Position numbers and translations under genes: made by a program. The notes under the pieces are model-generated. The model did no database searches. It was not told the DNA's origin and worked only from the letters and a program-made list of their open reading frames with translations. 64,000 nucleotides of DNA, taken from NCBI GenBank assembly GCA_958295985.1, contig CATQHV010000001.1:1-64000 (forward strand). Reading direction: 5' to 3'. How positions within the stretch are numbered: the stretch's first letter is position 1; each line of letters opens with the position of its first letter. This document shows, in pieces, positions 6,001 through 32,155 of the stretch. The stretch is from an uncultured Candidatus Binatia bacterium (lineage in GTDB: Bacteria > Desulfobacterota > Binatia > UBA9968 > JAJDTQ01).

Positions 6001-9000
6001 CCGTCAACGGCACCGGCCACGTGCTCGTGGCCGACGGCGCCCGCGTCGCCGTGTACGACCGCGATCTGGCGTACACGGGGGACCTCCGGTCGGGATTCAC
6101 GTATGCGAGCGGCGTGGCCTTTGATCCCGCCACCGGCAGGACGTACGTCTCCGATTCGATATCGGACCACGTCAGGGTGCTGGACCCCGCCGGACGGGAC
6201 GCCGGCACCACCATCGGCGGGTTTGACACCCCCACCGGCGTGGCCGTCGACTCCCAGGGCAACCTGTACGTGGCCGACCAGAACAACGACCGCATCGCCG
6301 TGTTCAACGGTACGGGACACCCGCTGCCGGACCTCCCCGGGACCTTTGACGGCCCGCGGGGGGTGGCCGCCGACCCGGTCACCGGCCGGATATACGTGGT
6401 GGACCGCTCCGGTACGCGCGGCCACGTCCTTGACCATACGGCATACGCCTTCGAGGTGGCAAACGCCACGGCCGGCGCCGTCCTGGGGGTGGGGCTGCCG
6501 GCCGGCGGCGTGCGGGATATCGCGGGCAACCCCAGCGTGACCTCCGGCCGGACGGGCATCACCGTAGACCGGTTCCCTCCCGCCGTCTCCTCGGCGGCCG
6601 TCACCGGCCCCCTCAACGTGACGGTATGGTATACGGAGCCCGTGAACGCCACGTCGGCCGCATACGGCCGGCTGGTCGTGGACGGCATCCCCAGGACCCT
6701 GGATGCGGATCGGCCGCCTGCGGGCAACGGCACCGCCGTGCATGTCATCACGTTCACGGGGACGCCGGCGCCGCGGACCGCCGGCGGCACCCTCACGATG
6801 GACCTGACTGCCATCGCCGATACGGCCGGCAATGCAGCGGGTACGCGGACGGACGTCCTGCAGGAGCTGGTGCCGGGCCAGGCGCCGGTCGTCACGGCGG
6901 CGGCCGTCACCGGCCCGCGCCAGATAACGTTATCGTATACGGTACCGGTGAACGCCACCGGGACCGCATACGGCGTGCCCGTGATCGACGGTACGGCCCG
7001 CGCGTATGCGGCCGATCCGCTGGGGGGCAACGGCACCGCCGTACACACGCTGGCGCTTGACGGCGGCTCCGCGGTCGGGACGACGGACGCCACCGGCACC
7101 CTGCCGGTGGACTCGACGGCCGTCACGGACGTGTACGACATCACCATGGGCACCTCGACGTCCCTCCGGATACCGCTGTCCGACGGGCAGGCGCCGGCCG
7201 TCGACTCTGCCGTGATCACCGCGCCCAACCGGTTCACCGTACGGTATACCGAGCCCGTGTACGCCTACGGCGCCTCCGCATACGGCGAGCTGTCCGTGGA
7301 CGGCCTCCCGCGCAGCTATGCGTCCCCGGATCCGCTTGCCGGTAATGGCACCGCCGTCCACCTTGTCGAGTTCACGGGTGCGCCGGCACCGCGGGCGGCC
7401 GGCGGCACAGTCCTGCTGAACCTGACCCTGCTGGAGGATGCGGCCGGCAACGCCGTGGGTGCGGAACCCGCATTCCCGCAGGCGCTCTCGGGCGGCGGCC
7501 AGATGGGGGTGCTGCTGGCCACGGAGACGCCCCTGCACACCGCCCTTGATACCATCCCCTTCACCATGGGGTTCGGCAGGTCCATAAACGCCACCACACT
7601 GGACGCCTCCGACATCAACGCCACCTCGGGTACGGTGCGGAACCTGGAGCGCGTCTTTTCGGCCAACGGAAGCCTTGGCGCGGCGCAGCTGGCCGACTAT
7701 CCGTACGGCGTGGCCGTCAACGGCACCGGCCACGTGTACGTGGCGGACCGCAGCAACCACCGCATCGCCGTGTTTGGCCCCGACGGCGCCTACACGGGCC
7801 AGATCACCGGCCTCCGGTATCCCAGGGACGTGTCCATACACGGCGTCACCGGGGACGTCTACGTGGCCGACACCGGCAGCGGCCTGGTCCGGATCTTCAA
7901 CGGTACCGGGCACCCGCTCGGCGAGCTCGCAGGCAGGTTCAACGGCCCGGAGGGGCTGGCCGTCGACGGGGCGGCCGGCCGGGTATACGTGGCCGATACG
8001 GCCAACCTCCGCGTTCGAGTATTCGATACCGCGACACGGCAGGAGATCGCCGACCTGCCGGGCACGTTTGTCTTCCCGATAGGCGTGGCCGCCGATCCGC
8101 TGTCGGGAACCGTCTACGTGGTGGATGCGCAGGCCAACATGATCAGGGTCTTCAACTCGACCCTGGATCACATACACGACATCGCCGGCATGTTCGCCCT
8201 CCAGTCAGGCGTGGCCGTGGACCCCTCGTCGGGCACCCTGTATGCCGCCGAGACCGACAACGGCGTCATCGCGGTGTTCAACGGCACCTGGGACCGCGTC
8301 GCGCAGATCGACCCGCCGGGACGGCCCATCCGCATAACAGTCGATCCCTCGGCCGGAACCGTATACGTGGTCAACGATGTCGACCGCCCCGTCCGCGTGT
8401 ATGATCCCGGGTACGCCTTCGAGGTGGCCGGCGTGGAGGCCGATGAGGTGCTGGCTGTGAACATACCGCAGGGCGCCGTCCTGGATCCGGCCGGCAACGA
8501 GAACGCCGCATCCGGGACGGTGCGCATCAACATCGACCGCACGCCCCCCGTCCCGGTCGTCGGCTCGGCACATCCTGATCCGACCAACGCCACCGCCATC
8601 GGGTTCACGGTACACTTTGACATGGGGGTGCGCGGGTTCGGGGCGGACGACATCATACTGGGCGGCACCGCCGCACTTGACGGGGGGGTGAAGAACTTTG
8701 CGCGGGTAGGCGCCGACAACGGCAACGGCAACGGCAACGGCGCCGCCGCCAACTATACGTTCGAGGTCTCGCCTGTGGCGGACGGGACGGTCCTGGTGGG
8801 CGTCCCGGCGGGCGCCGCGCGGGATCTGGCAGGCAACCCCAGTGCCGCATCCGCCAGGTTCTCCGTGGTATACGACGGCACGCCGCCGCACCCCGTGGCG
8901 GCCCACACCGTCGACGAGGAGGCGCCCGCCGCCGTCAATAACCGCTATTTCGTCACGCCGCTGACCCGGGAGGTGCGGTCCCACGGGGGCGTGTGGTATA

Positions 9001-12000
9001 CCAACCTGGAGTCCGTCCCGATGGGTATAGTGTACCGCGGCGGGGCGGTCAACGCCTCGACCGTCGAGATATCGGACGTCAACGCCACGCTGGGCACGGT
9101 GTCCGACCCCCGGTGGCCGCTGCGGTACAACTCTACATTCGGCTCGGGCCCCGGCGCCCCCGGCGCCGCCGGCGGCCAGCTGAACCATCCGTACGACGTG
9201 GCGCTCGACGGTACCGCGGGTTACGCGTACGTGGCCGACACGGAGAACGACCGCATCGCGGTCTTGGAGGTTGCCACGGGACGCCATGTGGCCAACATCA
9301 CGGACGGACTCGACACCCCGTACGGCGTGGCAGTCGATCCCGCCACCGGAACCGTATACGTGGCCGACACGGAGAACGACCGGGTCCGGGTGTTCAACTA
9401 TACGGGGATGCGGGTCTCGTGGAGCTCGGCCACCGGTGTCGGCGGCGGCTCCCCCCCAACTCCACCCCCTGCCGATCCGGGCTCGGCCTGGCCCCGCATC
9501 GCCGACATCGGGGCGGACCGGCTCGACACCCCGTACGGCGTGGCCGTCGACGGCGCCACCGGAACCGTATACGTGGCCGACACGGGCAACGACCGCGTCG
9601 CGGTCTTCGACGGTGCGGGCCGCTACACGTCGGAGATTGCGGACGGGTTCGACTTTCCGGCCGGCGTGGAGGTGGACGGTGCGGCCGGCCGCATATACGT
9701 GGCCGACACGGGCAACGACCGCGTCGCGGTGTTTAACAGAACGGGGGACTTTATCACCAACGTCACCGACGGCAGGATCGACACGGCCACCGGCGTGGCC
9801 ATCGATCCCGCCACCGGGACCGTATACGTGGCCGACTTTGTCAACGAACGGATAGCCGTGTTCAACGGTACCGGACACAACACGGCCAACATCGTCCGCG
9901 CATTCAACACCCAGGCCTACGGGGAGGTGGTTCCAAGATTCGACCACTCGTTCAGCACCCCGGCCGGCGTGGGGGTGGACCCGGTCACGGGCGCGCTGTA
10001 CGTGGCCGACACCTTCGACCACGAGGTGCACCGGTTCGACGTGTCGTACGCGTTTGACGTGGGCGGGCTGGATCACGGGGACCGGTTTACGGTGGGCATG
10101 CCGGCAGGTGCCGTGCGCGATGCGGCCGGCAACCCCAACGAGGGGTCCGACAGGGCGGCCGTCGTCATAGACAGGATGCCCCCGGTACCCGTCATCAACT
10201 CCACGCAGCCCGACCCCACCAACTCGACCGTTCTGGACTTTACGGTCGCCTGGGGCGAGAACGTCACCGGGTTCGGGCCCGGCGACGTCCGGGTGTCGGG
10301 GGCGCGCCTCTCCGCGGGCGACATCGCCAACTTTACGGGGGCGGGCGCCAACTATACATTCGAGGTCCGGCCGGCCGCCGACGGGACGGTACGCGTGGAG
10401 ATACCGGCCGGTTCCGCGCACGACCTGGCCGGCAACGCCGGGCCGGGGGCCGTCCCGTTCGAGATCGTATACGACACCGGGCCTCCGGTACCGGTGATCA
10501 CGGCGGTGCAGCGGAGCCCCACCAACTCGACGGTCATCAACCTGCGGGTGGAATGGGGCGAGAACGTCACCGGGTTCGGGGCCGGCGACGTCCGGGTGTC
10601 GGGGGCCACGGTATACGGCGGCGGGGCGGTCAACCTGGGCGGACTGGACGGGTACGCCAACTATACCTTCGAGGTCCGGCCGGCCGACGACGGGAAGATA
10701 CGCATAGAGATACCGGCCGGTTCCGCACACGACCTGGCCGACAACCCCGGTGCCGCGGGGGTTCCGCTGGAGATCGTGTACGATTCCATGGGGCCGGTCC
10801 CGGAGGTCACGGCCGTGCAGTCCAGCCCCACATACGCGGACACGGTCAACATCAGGGTGGACTGGAGGGAGCCCGTCGAGGGGTTTGACACGGACGACAT
10901 CGTCGTGTCGGGGACGGCCCCGCACGGCGGTGTCACCAACTTTGCGGGGGCGGGCGCCAGCTATACGTTCGACATCTCGCCCACGGGGGACGGAAGCCTG
11001 CTGGTGGACATCCGCCCCGGCGCCGTACCGGATCCGGCGGGCAACCCCAGCGTGCCGGGCGACCGGCTCGTCATGGTGTACACCGGCTCGTCCCCCATCC
11101 CCAGGATCGCGGCTACCGTGGGCGACCCCACCCGCCTGCAGACCGTACCGTTCACCGTCACGTTCAGCGAGCACGTGGATGCGTCCACGTTCGATACATC
11201 GGATATCACGGTATCCTCGGGGACCGTCCGGAACCTGGAGCCCGCCGTACTGCACACGGATCTGGGCAACGGCACCGCCGGCGCCGGCACGGGCCGGCTG
11301 GACCGCCCCTCGGGGGTGGCCGTCGACACCGCCTCCGGAACCGTATACGTGGCCGATACGGGCAACGACCGCGTCACCGTGTTCAACACGGCCCGGCACC
11401 ATACCGCCAACATCACGGCCGGGTTCGACAACCCCGCCGGGGTGGCCGTCGACGGCGCCGGCCGCCTCTACGTGGCCGACACCGGCAGCGACCGCGTCGC
11501 CGTGATGGACGGTACCACCGGCCGCCCGGCAGGCATCGGCGAGATCACCGGCTGGCTGGACCGCCCCTCGGGGGTGGCAGTCCACATCCGGTCGGACACC
11601 GTATACGTGGCCGACCCGTTCAACGACCGGATCGCCGTGTTCGACGGTACCACCGGCCGCAACACGGCCAACATCACCGAAGGGTTGAGCGGTCCCTCGG
11701 GGGTGGCCGTCCACGACGCGTCCGGTACCGTATACGTGGCCGACACATTCAACGACCGGGTCGCCGTATACGACTCGGCTCTGGAGCCGCTCCAGGACCT
11801 GCCCGGTACATTCAAGCGTCCCGCCGGCGTGGCCGTCGACGACCGCTCCGGTGCGGTGTACGTGGCAGATACGGCCGCCGTAGCCGGCGCCGCCGGCACC
11901 GGCCGCATCGCCGTATACGATACCACGGGCCGCCACACGCACAACATCACCACCGGCGGCTTTGCAAACCCGGCCGGCGTGGCCGTCGATTCCCTGTCGG

Positions 12001-27743: not shown

Positions 27744-28100
27744 TCCCGCCTGCGGGCGCGGCACATGATCGATTGCCTGCAACCTTCTCCCTCACACCTT
27801 CCGCAAACGCATGCCGGAGCGCCGCCACGAGACGCGCGATATGCGCGGACGGCGCACACTCCTCCCGGCCGAACCTCTGCCTGTGCAAAGAGTGCGGGGT
27901 CGTGCCGTTCATCAGGCTGAAAAAGAATGCGGTGACCGCGGGCGGGGCCGCGGCACCGGGACGTCTCCGATCTGACTAGTTTGTGCGGTAACCCTACAGC
28001 ATGGCCAAGTCTCCACCACACCAGGCCCCACCCTAACCCTGCTCCACTGCAACACATGCGCCGATCAGGTGTGTCCTACCGCGTCCCGTCGAGCCGTTCC
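27744..28100. other. Intergenic, no recognised gene
   Basis: Between the stop of giant gene 1 and the transposase remnant I see no convincing gene. A 60-codon minus ORF (27730-27912, MNGTTPHSLHRQRFGREE...) overlaps the end of gene 1 and has no family I recognise. No T-rich archaeal terminator is obvious directly after the stop at 27743. Confidence 0.5.
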
Positions 28101-28813
28101 CTAGCATGTCCTGGCCATCTCCTTGTCTATCAGCCCGTTGTAGATTGCCACCTTGATCCTTGCCTCCCTGATTATGGCTTCCCTGGTCAGCGAACTGACG
28201 GACTCGCCGAACATCCTCTTGAATGCGGCAAATACAATCTCCACTATCCACCTCTTGCCGTACCCGTTCAGTTTTTTCCACTCCTCGCGGTTGGCCACCT
28301 TGTCCTCGGTCGGGAGGCCGGCTACGTTTTGTTCCCCCGCCCCAAGCTGGTCGCACGCCTGCTCGTCCCACGGGCCGTCGGGGTTCTCTCCGGCATCTTT
28401 GGCGTTCTTCTCGAACAGGATCCCCGATACAAATCCGGCCTTGCTGATCGCCTCTGATGGCGCGTGTCGCGTAGGCCCTGTCGCCGAGTACTATCACAAA
28501 CGGGGTGTGTGAAATGTCCGATATCGTCTCCATTGCTATCTTGTTTATAGTTCGGCGTACGGCGGCAGGATTTGCCGGCCTGTGGTTTTGTCGGGGTTTC
28601 ATATCTGCGGTTTCGACCGCCGCAACACCCGCGGACGCCGCAGCACCCGCAACCTCCACACCCGCGGACGCCGCAGCACCCGCGGACGCCGCAGCACCCG
28701 CGGACGCCGCAGCACCCGCGGACGCCGCAGCACCCGCGGACGCCGCAGCACCCGCAACCTCCACTTTAGTGCCGCCGGCCGCCTCCTTTCTCGCCGCGGT
28801 CACCACATCGTCC
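28101..28813 (-). pseudogene. IS5-family transposase, C-terminal part (broken)
   Basis: The minus strand encodes DDVVTAARKEAAGG..., a long Ala/Gly/Ser repeat, then ADMKPRQNHRPANPAAVRRTINKIAMETIS and VIVLGDRAYATRAI, which carries the second catalytic Asp. A one-base frame change near 28455 follows. The other frame continues EAISKAGFVSGILFEKNAKD...ANREEWKKLNGYGKRWIVEIVFAAFKRMFGESV to the stop at 28101, which is the typical C-terminal Glu region of IS5-type DDE transposases. The track splits this into a 289-aa and a 65-aa ORF, and the 289-aa one runs falsely into the inserted element. The N-terminal half is at 30914-31404, beyond the 2.09-kb insertion. Confidence 0.82.
28620..28762. repeat. 18-bp tandem repeat inside the transposase remnant
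   Basis: The unit GCAGCACCCGCGGACGCC occurs about five times in tandem. It is flanked on both sides by variant copies ending in GCAGCACCCGCAACCTCCA. On the minus strand it reads as an in-frame (AGAAAS)n tract. Such a tract is foreign to DDE transposases and adds about 40 residues between the first and second catalytic Asp. Confidence 0.9.
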
Positions 28814-28817
28814 ACAT
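28814..28817. repeat. Left target-site duplication (ACAT)
   Basis: ACAT here and at 30910-30913 directly flank the inverted-repeat-bounded insertion. Removing 28818-30909 plus one ACAT rejoins the transposase reading frame as AKDDVDDVV. Confidence 0.8.
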
Positions 28818-28908
28818 CAGAACTTGAAAATGTGTGTGCAGGCAAGCAAAAGGAATGCCTGGAAATTCGTCCCCGAGGACCGCTAGACGGGCGCATTTTC
28901 AAGTTCCG
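28818..28908. repeat. Left MITE-like palindromic end copy
   Basis: A 91-bp sequence starts CAGAACTTGAAAATG and ends CATTTTCAAGTTCCG. It is itself flanked by ACAT at 28814 and 28909. An internal CAGGCA...TGCCTG stem is visible. It aligns along its length with the right copy at 30822-30909, e.g. CGTCCC.GAG.AC and the 3' CATTTTCAAGTTC. Confidence 0.8.
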
Positions 28909-28912
28909 ACAT

Positions 28913-29370
28913 GGCTGTTTTCCTCTTCATTGTGTATTATGTTGTCCACTCATAATTGTGACATGTATAACACCCACAAGGAAGATCAAGGCGATCAAAG
29001 CAAAGCTGGATTAGTAACTGGCCACGTCGTGCCTAGCACCATGACACAAAAACCGTCAACCAATCAATTTCGTGACCAGAGATCGGAATTCGGCAGAAAT
29101 GCGTGACAGGTTACCGGTATCGAAGACCGTGCGCGTATGGGCCGTCATACGCGCGCGTGGGGGATGGCGGGTGTACGGCTGGCAAGATCGTTACGCAACG
29201 CCCCCGCCGCCCTCACCCGTGAAAAACCAGAAGCGCGCCGGGCATGCAGATGAAAGGACGTCACACCCGGCTGCAAACGAACCGTAGCTTTACCCGGGCG
29301 CCGCCTGACGGCGGTTACAAAACCCGAGATTGCGGGACAGGCCGGAGATCTAAAAACCGACTCGTGTGGG
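28913..29370. other. Non-coding part of the insertion
   Basis: No supported gene lies in this ~460-bp stretch between the left end copy and the 58-aa gene. Short plus-strand ORFs in the track lack any recognisable domain. Small hairpins are present (CCGCC-TGAC-GGCGG near 29302; GCCGGG...CCCGGC near 29236-29271). No tRNA or C/D-box pattern was found. Confidence 0.55.
29351..29357 (-). terminator. Possible T-rich terminator of the protease operon
   Basis: On the minus strand GGTTTTTAG lies about 15 nt after the stop codon of the 58-aa gene. Short T-runs after stops are typical archaeal terminators. This one is weak (five T). Confidence 0.35.
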
Positions 29371-29547
29371 CTAGGTGCCGGAATACAGAATCAGCTTTTT
29401 TGCAGATTTCATATCCCTGACTATCTCGGCCAGTTTTCTTATCTCCTCGCTTTGTATCGCGGTATCGCGTATAGCATCTATCTGTGACAGCATCTCCTTC
29501 TCCTTGTCCATGTGTTCGAATATTATGTCAAACTTGCCGCCCGTCAT
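29371..29547 (-). CDS. 58-aa helical protein (not in the ORF track)
   Basis: Read from the minus strand: MTGGKFDIIFEHMDKEKEMLSQ... to ...LILYSGT, stop TAG at 29371-29373. It is short of the track's length cut-off. The start ATG lies inside the end of the zinc-ribbon gene, giving a 20-nt overlap that suggests translational coupling. The sequence is highly charged with heptad-like Ile/Leu spacing, so a single amphipathic helix or coiled coil is likely. I do not recognise a family. As third gene of the operon it may be a partner or adaptor of the protease-like protein. Confidence 0.6.
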   Translation of the reverse strand: MTGGKFDIIFEHMDKEKEMLSQIDAIRDTAIQSEEIRKLAEIVRDMKSAKKLILYSGT

Positions 29548-29854
29548 CTAATACCGCCTTTTTACCCGATTCCTGTTCGGCCCTCTGACGTATATACTTT
29601 AAGTCCACCATTCCGCCGCATTGCGGGCAGTTCATCAGATCCGTGTCCACCGGGTACGGTATCGCCCCGTCCTCCAGCGGCAGGTTCCTTTCCAGGTTGA
29701 TCTGGACCCCGATTTCATGCTTGCATGACGGACACGAAGCGCCCACCAGATAACGGCCGGGGTTTTGGACGAACCGTACCGGGGCCCCAAAGCGGTAGAT
29801 CCGAGAGCCCACAGTCTCAAAGATCTTGTATGCCGTTGACCTCTCAAAGCTCAT
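29528..29854 (-). CDS. 108-aa zinc-ribbon protein
   Basis: Starts with ATG (MSFERSTAYKIFETVGSRIYRFG). Two CxxC knuckles, CPSC (about residue 41) and CPQC (about residue 76), are spaced as in a zinc ribbon, with a beta-rich intervening segment and a polar helical tail. No membrane segment is present. It starts 35 nt after the stop of the SDH-like gene and overlaps the 58-aa gene downstream, so the three probably form one transcript. The upstream gap contains a short GCGTAATA-type direct repeat (29865-29885). Specific function unknown; a substrate- or nucleic-acid-binding partner of the protease-like protein is possible. Confidence 0.75.
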   Translation of the reverse strand: MSFERSTAYKIFETVGSRIYRFGAPVRFVQNPGRYLVGASCPSCKHEIGVQINLERNLPLEDGAIPYPVDTDLMNCPQCGGMVDLKYIRQRAEQESGKKAVLDDGRQV

Positions 29855-29889
29855 TCTTAACAGCGTGTAATAGCGCGTAATAGCGTCAT

Positions 29890-30696
29890 TCAGTTCCTTG
29901 TTTTGCTGTAATCCGTAATTTTTATTTTAAGATCCTCGAGATCCTTGATCTTGATTGAGCGTTCATGGATGAGCCATTTTGACTGGGAGCAAAGGTCGGT
30001 GGCGATATCTTTTGCCCGGTCACGCTTTTCATATTCTGTAACCTCGCGCCCGTCGGTGTGCCTGTCCCAGTACTTGAACTTGTATCTGGCGAGCCAGTCC
30101 GTGACCAGACTTTTTGAAAAGTCCTGTATGTTTTTACACTTTTGGATCTCGCCCGGGGATATGTTCTGGAGTATCGGAACGTATGCCATGTTCAGTATTT
30201 TTGTCTCTTCGACCTCCCTCTTTATCTTCTCAAACCCCTCCAGAAACGCGTCCGCCGAAAAGCTTTTCCCGTTTCCAAGCTGCAACTGGCCGTCTATCGG
30301 ACCCAGCGATGATCCGGGTCCCATTAGGATCTCATCTCCCGCCATCGCAAAAATCGTGCCGGCGCTCTTTGCAACGCCTGGAATCACCATTCCGACCTTT
30401 TCGTATTTTGCACGGACCAATTTTACGATATCCTCCACTACATCCCCCATGCCGCCGGGAGTTTCGAGTATTATGTCAAGTGCATTCCCTAACATATTGT
30501 CCAACTGATCTTGAACTGCAAGAAGATCCGTGTATTCTATCCCTGTGGGGGCCTCATTTTCGGACAGATCCGAGGAAAACACCAGGATGTCTCTGTTTTC
30601 CCTTAGTTTTGAAATGACCGACAGCATCCTTTTTCGTTCGTTGGAAATTTCATCAAAATTCTGAAATTTGTTTAGATATTCTGCGTGTATTCCCAA
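29890..30696 (-). CDS. SDH/ClpP-class serine protease-like protein (268 aa)
   Basis: The sequence contains ILETPGGMGDVVEDIVKLVR (residues 76-95), then VIPGVAKSAGTIFAMAGDEILMGPGSSLGPIDGQL (104-138). This is the core of the SDH_sah (serine dehydrogenase proteinase) group of the ClpP/crotonase fold. The likely nucleophile is Ser111 in KSAGT, and GGMGD is the oxyanion or strand motif. No signal peptide or membrane helix is evident, so a cytosolic location is expected, unlike SppA. The C-terminal third (QCKNIQDFSK...WLARYKFKYWDRHTDGREVT) is helical and polar. The start is TTG at 30694-30696: an in-frame TGA lies only 9 nt upstream of it and the first ATG is at residue 24, inside the helix. First gene of a three-gene operon carried in the insertion. 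Confidence 0.82.
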   Translation of the reverse strand: MGIHAEYLNKFQNFDEISNERKRMLSVISKLRENRDILVFSSDLSENEAPTGIEYTDLLAVQDQLDNMLGNALDIILETPGGMGDVVEDIVKLVRAKYEKVGMVIPGVAKSAGTIFAMAGDEILMGPGSSLGPIDGQLQLGNGKSFSADAFLEGFEKIKREVEETKILNMAYVPILQNISPGEIQKCKNIQDFSKSLVTDWLARYKFKYWDRHTDGREVTEYEKRDRAKDIATDLCSQSKWLIHERSIKIKDLEDLKIKITDYSKTRN

Positions 30697-30714
30697 GCCG
30701 TCTTGTCATCAGCT

Positions 30715-30728
30715 ACAATATTATCAAA
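30715..30728 (-). promoter_or_regulatory. TATA-like promoter of the protease operon
   Basis: On the minus strand TTTGATAATATTG is centred about 28 nt before the TTG start codon. With the usual ~25-nt TATA-to-start distance, the transcript would begin at or very near the TTG, implying a leaderless mRNA. No Shine-Dalgarno is visible. Confidence 0.5.
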
Positions 30729-30821
30729 TCCATCGCATGCCGGTTCGTACACGGTCGTAACCGTACCCGGAAACACCCGGATCAAAACGTATCGGTTCGA
30801 AAAAATACGGCGGAGTGATGT

Positions 30822-30909
30822 TAGAACTTAAACGTGCATGCCGGCAGACGTCACGCATACCTAAGAATCCGTCCCAGAGAACGCCAGACTGGCACATTTT
30901 CAAGTTCTG
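30822..30909. repeat. Right MITE-like palindromic end copy
   Basis: An 88-bp sequence starts TAGAACTTAAACGTG and ends CACATTTTCAAGTTCTG. It aligns in direct orientation with the left copy at 28818-28908. Its outer end is the perfect inverted repeat; its inner end has diverged. Confidence 0.78.
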
Positions 30910-30913
30910 ACAT
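30910..30913. repeat. Right target-site duplication (ACAT)
   Basis: Direct copy of 28814-28817 next to the right terminal inverted repeat. Confidence 0.8.
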
Positions 30914-31404
30914 CATCCTTGGCAGCCGCCCTGATCGCCCCGATCCTCGCCTCCTCCTCGATCTCCATGTCCGTGAACCTCTGGAACCGGACCCGGCATC
31001 TTTAGGACGTCGTCAAACATCCCCTGGAATGCGGTCGGGTCACCCACCGTCTCGTCGGTCACCTTCAGGCCCAGCACCTTTTTGGTGTCCGCATCTATCA
31101 GGAAATGTATCTTGACGAACCCGCGCTTTGTCTTCCACTTTTTCGCTATCCGCGAGCCGCAGTTGTGCTGTCTGAGCCCGGACGAGTCCACTACGAGCCT
31201 GATCATTCCGGGTTTGGACGACGCCAGTACGAAACGGTCTACGATCTTGACGTCCAGCCTGTTGATCCGCTCGCGCAGGTGGCCGTAGGACGGGACGTTT
31301 TCGGGCCCCAGCATGGCCCCCACAAAGCCCGCAAGCTGCCTGTACGGCATCCCGAGCATGCTCCTGACCGGCGCAACAGACATGATCAACGACTCCGTAT
31401 ACAT
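30914..31404 (-). pseudogene. IS5-family transposase, N-terminal part (broken)
   Basis: Reads MYTESLIMSVAPVRSMLGMPYRQLAGFVGAML...IRLVVDSSGLRQHNCGSRIAKKWKTKRGFVKIHFLIDADTKKVLGLKVTDETVGD. The first catalytic Asp is in VVDSSGL. The frame breaks near 31005 (MPGPV, then VPEVHG in the track). The restored frame is RFQRFTDMEIEEEARIGAIRAAAKDDV and stops at the insertion point. In-frame upstream codons (AELKKANRRKNGRPW) look like genuine transposase sequence back to a stop at about 31522, so the original start has been lost or lies in that segment. It continues as the fragment at 28101-28813. Confidence 0.82.
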
Positions 31405-31522
31405 CCACGGACGGCCGTTTTTGCGGCGGTTGGCCTTTTTCAGCTCCGCTTCCCTGCCCTCTCCGGCGTCCAGAACCCGCGCCGCGCCGCGCCGCGTTCG
31501 ATGTATTTTTCGTCGCGGTTTT

Positions 31523-32155
31523 TACGGCCTGCACCGGCAACACCGGAGGATCCTGCCGGAACCGGGCCTCTTGCGCAAGACATCCGTAGCAAACCTGGAG
31601 GATGCGGCGGATGCAAAAAAGGCGGCATGCCGGCAGGCGGGTACGAAGAGCCGTCGCAGGCGCAAAAAGGGCGTGGTTCGGGACGGCCGTGCAGAACGAA
31701 CCGACATTCATCGGGGCCTGCGGCGGGACTGGCGTTTGCGGGTGGTGGAAACGGCCCGACTCGCCAGCAAGACAAAAAAAAGTGCGCCGCAACGCCCCGC
31801 CCGGCCATGTCGTACAGGCCGGCGTTTCCGGTTTTGTCTCGGATCCGGGCGTTTTTGGATCCGGGCCGGGAGGCGCCTCGCATCCCGTAAGCATCACCGA
31901 TCACCGATCAACAAACACGCATCTCTGCCCGAAATTCGGTGTTTGGATCCCGCGGCATGCAAGCGCGGTACCGCGGTCCCGTATGCGGCAGCATGCGGTT
32001 TGGATCCCAAAAACACCCGGATCCGAGACGGGACCGGACACCCGGCCGTCCCCGGCGGCGGGGGTTTGGGCGTTCCTCCCCTCCCCCCACGCATGTCCGT
32101 TCCCCGGTCCGCCGAAACGTGAACCTGCCTGATCGCCTGCCGCCGCGGCAAACGT
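31523..32155. other. Intergenic, no recognised gene
   Basis: The overlapping track ORFs here (31313-32122, 31602-32132, 31440-31904 and others) show no domain or coherent protein character and run through inverted-repeat sequence, so I treat them as chance. The stretch holds the inverted repeat described separately. Confidence 0.55.
31817..32047. repeat. Inverted repeat pair (~46-bp arms, 139-bp loop)
   Basis: The left arm 31817-31862 contains GTCTCGGATCCGGGCGTTTT. The right arm 32002-32047 reads as its near-perfect reverse complement (AAAACACCCGGATCCGAGAC). TTTGGATCCC recurs in the loop near 31945. It may be a second MITE-like or REP-type element. No target duplication was identified. Confidence 0.7.

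Follow-up and report, generated by a model that had tools for sequence, protein, structure and literature searches.

Within the window, the 64,000-nucleotide stretch of DNA analysed here, an element of 2,092 bp (28818-30909) interrupts a gene for an IS5-family transposase and holds a protease gene and a small ORF between two MITEs (table 1). Its outer inverted repeats are 17 bp long and free of mismatches, with CAGAACTTGAAAATGTG at 28818-28834 and the exact complement at 30893-30909. When CAGAACTTGAAAATGTG was searched with up to three mismatches allowed, three matches were obtained in the window against 0.04 expected from shuffling; the third, on the minus strand at 28892-28908, forms the inner terminus of MITE1, which is complete. 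No transposase was found inside the element, either in the ORF list or in a family search. An earlier sequence-only reading had described perfect 17-bp terminal inverted repeats, ACAT on both sides and an element lacking its own transposase, and the sequence agreed with this description.

Table 1. Positions in the window of the element, its parts and the transposase gene that it interrupts.
Feature	Positions	Strand	Evidence and remarks
3′ transposase piece and IS right end, including Ala-rich repeat tract	27977-28817	minus	84% identity to intact copy; Pfam DDE_Tnp_1 at its cut-off
Left 4-bp target duplication, ACAT	28814-28817		sequence; single copy in uninterrupted IS5 homologues
MITE1, 91 bp	28818-28908	plus	no mismatch in outer 17-bp repeat, 2 in inner repeat; ACAT at inner flank (28909-28912)
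Second dispersed repeat, ~102 bp, short GTAA...TTAC inverted ends	29012-29115	plus	8 copies aligned
58-aa ORF	29371-29547	minus	no meaningful family match
SDH-type ClpP-like serine protease gene with C-terminal zinc ribbon	29528-30696	minus	PF01972, 48.2 bits (cut-off 31.3)
MITE2, 88 bp	30822-30909	plus	outer 17-bp repeat perfect; inner end decayed; inner flank ATGT 30818-30821
Right 4-bp target duplication, ACAT	30910-30913		sequence
5′ transposase piece, truncated, 2-nt deletion near 30982/30983	30914-31535	minus	91% identity to intact copy; Pfam DDE_Tnp_1_5

An intact IS5-family transposase of 486 aa is encoded in the same genome bin (C2:76109-77569) and exceeded the cut-off of IS5 model NF033579 (160.5 bits against 140); both transposase pieces of the window align to it and meet at ACAT. 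For virtual excision the insert was removed, one ACAT was kept, and the joined sequence was aligned to uninterrupted IS5 copies. The alignments were gap-free at the join for C2:76730-76875 and contig 8 of bin G040 (89.7% each) and for contig 2 of bin G039 (82%), and the 4-bp target was identical in two of the three copies, with one substitution in that of G039; these copies, used as empty sites, are paralogues and not the orthologous locus. The proposals that the two pieces are one gene and that an element had entered it with a 4-bp duplication were thus borne out by all three uninterrupted homologues found, each of which aligned across the joined site. The reading frame of the peptide junction proposed earlier, AKDDV-DDVV, continues through the join but is not that of the 163-aa ORF beginning at 31404. 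Beyond 31535, a point some 80 nt within the ORF of the intact copies, homology to them is lost. Given this truncation and the 2-nt deletion, the interrupted gene appears from its sequence to be dead, or mis-sequenced, independently of the insertion. As a separate observation, the catalytic domain of these IS5-family transposases holds an Ala/Val-rich tandem-repeat tract (window ~28632-28760, and within C2 76109-77569), the sequence and length of which vary from copy to copy.

MITE1 and MITE2 are complete members of one family, lie in the same orientation and have an inner inverted repeat each, that of MITE2 reading TAGAACTTAAACGTG at the inner end after substitutions and a 2-bp deletion. They are 71% identical to one another and belong to different subfamilies over their whole length; among solo copies, the one at G039 contig 5 3684-3773 (g39c5_3684) has 83% identity with MITE1, and the one at C3:3161-3250 (C3_3161) has 91% identity with MITE2. 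The best relative is the same in both halves of either MITE (identities of 0.84 and 0.81 for MITE1 with g39c5_3684, and of 0.89 and 0.93 for MITE2 with C3_3161). On these comparisons the two MITEs look like independent insertions, with the hybrid signature of MITE recombination absent. An Rfam search gave no family at either of them.

When the full element was searched against the whole bin, only pieces of about 90 bp were retrieved elsewhere, and on alignment these proved to be elements with 17-bp inverted repeats. About 20 non-redundant elements of the family, composite included, were collected from related contigs. Identical direct 4-bp flanks were present in 10 of the 20, all of them ACAT or ATGT, against 3.5 identical pairs expected from random re-pairing of flanks (p about 1e-4); exactly inverted flanks were present in 0 of 20, and the idea that ACAT is part of a longer inverted repeat was rejected on these two counts. 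On each side, 13 of the 20 flanks read A(C/T)(A/G)T, a motif found at 1.2% of positions in the 70-110 kb stretch of C2. A second empty site was available for G039 contig 5, where an IS66-like transposase gene is split by a solo MITE; an uninterrupted relative on C2, which is paralogous, aligns through the join and follows the same 4-bp rule. Another pair of MITEs (G039 contig 4 9098-9282) has matching outer flanks and differing inner flanks. The sequence-only reading had proposed to look for further copies of the ends that carry 4-bp duplications; such copies exist, neither of the outcomes that it had named as refuting was seen, and its suggestion that the element might have arrived as a composite gained a complete MITE at each end. 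That reading had recognised the insertion and the duplication; the terminal MITEs, the cargo gene, the ACAT/ATGT preference and the probable archaeal, mis-binned origin discussed below had escaped it.

The protease gene is split by a frameshift at about 29896-29908 into two minus-strand ORFs (29890-30696, 268 aa, and 29528-29854, 108 aa), which are taken as one gene because a single 404-aa Leptospira plasmid peptidase aligns to both (36% and 28%). The protease did not reach the NCBIfam equivalog NF047768 (58 against 250), scans of GTDB and IMG/VR gave no close relatives, the matches obtained being of 26-38% and on plasmids and phages, and no defence-system match was obtained for the cargo. Cargo G+C is 50%, against about 60-62% in the surroundings, which suggests a different origin without proving one; on a plain reading the protease is a passenger. 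The ~102-bp GTAA...TTAC repeat nested in the cargo is unrelated to the MITEs, has further copies at C2 97383-97486 and on G039 and G040 contigs, and showed no clear target duplication among the aligned copies.

Taken together, the locus is very probably a non-autonomous composite transposon, in which the protease gene and the small ORF between two MITEs moved as a block into the IS5 gene. We infer the order of events and mobilisation in trans as follows. The protease gene would first have become flanked through two independent insertions, of different members of the MITE family, each at an ACAT/ATGT site; a transposase supplied in trans would then have paired the two outer inverted repeats, and the 2,092-bp block would have moved to an ACAT inside the degenerate IS5-family transposase gene, duplicating 4 bp. 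Since neither bounding MITE has coding sequence, the unit has no means of moving itself. That the outer pair drove the last move is suggested by the perfect outer and decayed inner repeats, an argument that rests on about five changes and is weak by itself. The inner flank of MITE2, ATGT as against the outer ACAT, is what would be expected if it remained from an earlier insertion; the inner flank of MITE1 is also ACAT and alone cannot separate a composite move from a solo MITE1 insertion. Searches of the whole bin and of related contigs gave no second copy of composite or cargo, which leaves a single insertion as the ground for proposing that the whole moved together.

The same arrangement could be reached by recombination, if a solo MITE had entered the IS5 gene and a circular molecule with one MITE next to the protease gene had then integrated into that MITE by homologous recombination. 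The shared orientation of the MITEs and the ACAT at both outer flanks fit this course, which would, however, leave two hybrid MITEs, whereas each MITE keeps one best relative in both halves; a crossover close to a MITE end would still be compatible with the half-by-half identities, and we consider this route improbable. Still less probable is a single derived element of the mobile insertion cassette (MIC) type, its transposase swapped for a passenger and the solo MITEs being its deletion products. Perfect outer repeats, one passenger gene and a missing transposase would all suit such an element, but a deletion product would have only the outer ends in common with it, and here a whole MITE stands at each end, with its own inner repeat and an ACAT/ATGT inner flank, the two being of different subfamilies. 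A chimeric join made by the assembler through repeated MITE sequence has to be considered in a contaminated bin and on a contig with likely consensus errors; a mis-join would not leave one half of a single IS5 gene on each side of the element together with an exact duplication of 4 bp, and an artefact is very unlikely indeed.

No transposase with CAGAACTTGAAAATGTG-type ends was found in the contigs and databases searched. IS5 was rejected as the parent of the MITEs since its ends differ (TAGKTTGTGCGGTAACCC), as was IS630, which has different ends (GCGGCGACAAAAAGTCTTTGCA) and a TA target. An IS66-like gene adjoins a MITE-type end at G039 contig 5 9203 and was kept as a lead, no second end having been found for it. 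Matches to the 18-mer in IMG/VR lacked paired ends and appear to be fortuitous. On G039 contig 5, two right ends of MITE type occur singly (6481-6583 and 9101-9203) and have about 113 bp in common that are absent from solo MITEs; it is possible that these ends, one of them beside the IS66-like gene, belong to the missing autonomous parent. Separately, an IS630 transposase is identical over 334 aa in two bins (C3 885-1889 and G039 contig 5 5467-6471) and seems to have moved recently; a stretch of G040, when compared, points to an empty TA site.

By sequence search, the MITE was absent from the 4.09-Mb contig C1 and from 38 related genomes. In a scan of GTDB species genomes, matches were obtained on contigs from two further MAGs, one labelled Gammaproteobacteria and the other Acidimicrobiia, besides one unpaired match in a Rhizobiaceae MAG; at up to two mismatches, all MITE matches in the three bins except one weak match were on small contigs. 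Two stretches of 6-8 kb of CATQHD010000001.1 (Acidimicrobiia bin) are 99.9% identical to C3, and the same DNA is therefore present in two bins. In the Gammaproteobacteria bin, a CATQGX contig that bears the MITE has a gene for a full-length S-layer protein of Nitrosopumilus type; the 1,690-aa product has a match from end to end with PDB 8c8k (1868 bits), an entry for the Nitrosopumilus maritimus S-layer (PMC11153153). A tRNA on the contig of the window itself contains a long insert that is probably intronic. The host is thus probably an ammonia-oxidising archaeon related to Nitrosopumilus, an assignment that has direct evidence in the case of the G039 contig and, for the window, depends on the indirect link of shared MITEs and IS5 copies. 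C2 and C3 (G000), CATQHD010000001.1 and CATQGX010000001.1 to 4.1 are probable archaeal contigs mis-binned in three bacterial MAGs. Side observations on these contigs were a 120-nt tRNA gene with a probable intron at C2 78055-78174, detected by Rfam and missed by ARAGORN, and giant ORFs with NHL-like and Ig-like repeats in the window (72-27743, 9,223 aa, and from 32423, 12,638 aa), on C2 (110847-125654, >4,900 aa) and on C3 (14483-40921, >8,800 aa).

The element can be set beside several known arrangements. As in classical IS-bounded composite transposons, two copies of one mobile element move the intervening DNA through their outer ends; unlike in those, the elements at the two ends have no coding sequence. 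In the Bacillus cereus group, a MIC is a single element that has IS231 ends and is activated by the IS231 transposase. The present element resembles them in having passenger genes between IS-type ends and no transposase of its own, and differs in structure, by the complete MITE at each end. TIME-COMPs consist of two Tn3-derived MITEs, direct or inverted, without transposition genes, and have transposed in trap assays (PMC4133298; PMC13367494). TIME-COMP2 is closest in layout, with two direct MITEs bounding passenger genes, none of them for transposition, and an outer target duplication; it is mobilised by a transposase in trans, as may by analogy hold for the 2,092-bp element. Tn3-type repeats of ~38 bp and a 5-bp duplication mark TIME-COMPs, whereas the repeats here are 17 bp of unrelated sequence (CAGAACTTGAAAATGTG) and the duplication in the empty-site comparisons is 4 bp, ACAT/ATGT; TIME-COMPs are, moreover, known from bacteria, and the present host is probably archaeal. 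With a complete MITE of the same family at each end, solo copies elsewhere, an outer duplication and uninterrupted paralogous targets, the element is, as judged from sequence, probably a MITE-bounded composite of the general kind, outside TIME-COMP. Literature searches gave no published work on MITE composites in thaumarchaeota. The family is an orphan in the sense of having no match in the searches made here, which excluded ISfinder. A wider proposal, which we regard as rather doubtful, would be an orphan MITE family of ammonia-oxidising archaea that uses ACAT/ATGT sites almost only, forms composites carrying host genes and depends on an undescribed transposase preferring 4-bp A(C/T)(A/G)T.

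The probable presence of archaeal contigs in three bacterial bins matters to users of those bins. The locus itself, on DNA that is probably archaeal, gives a clean example by computation of how a gene is moved by the two non-coding MITEs that enclose it, and the solo copies and empty sites let the transposition step be read; if the transposase were found, the outer-end rule would be directly testable.
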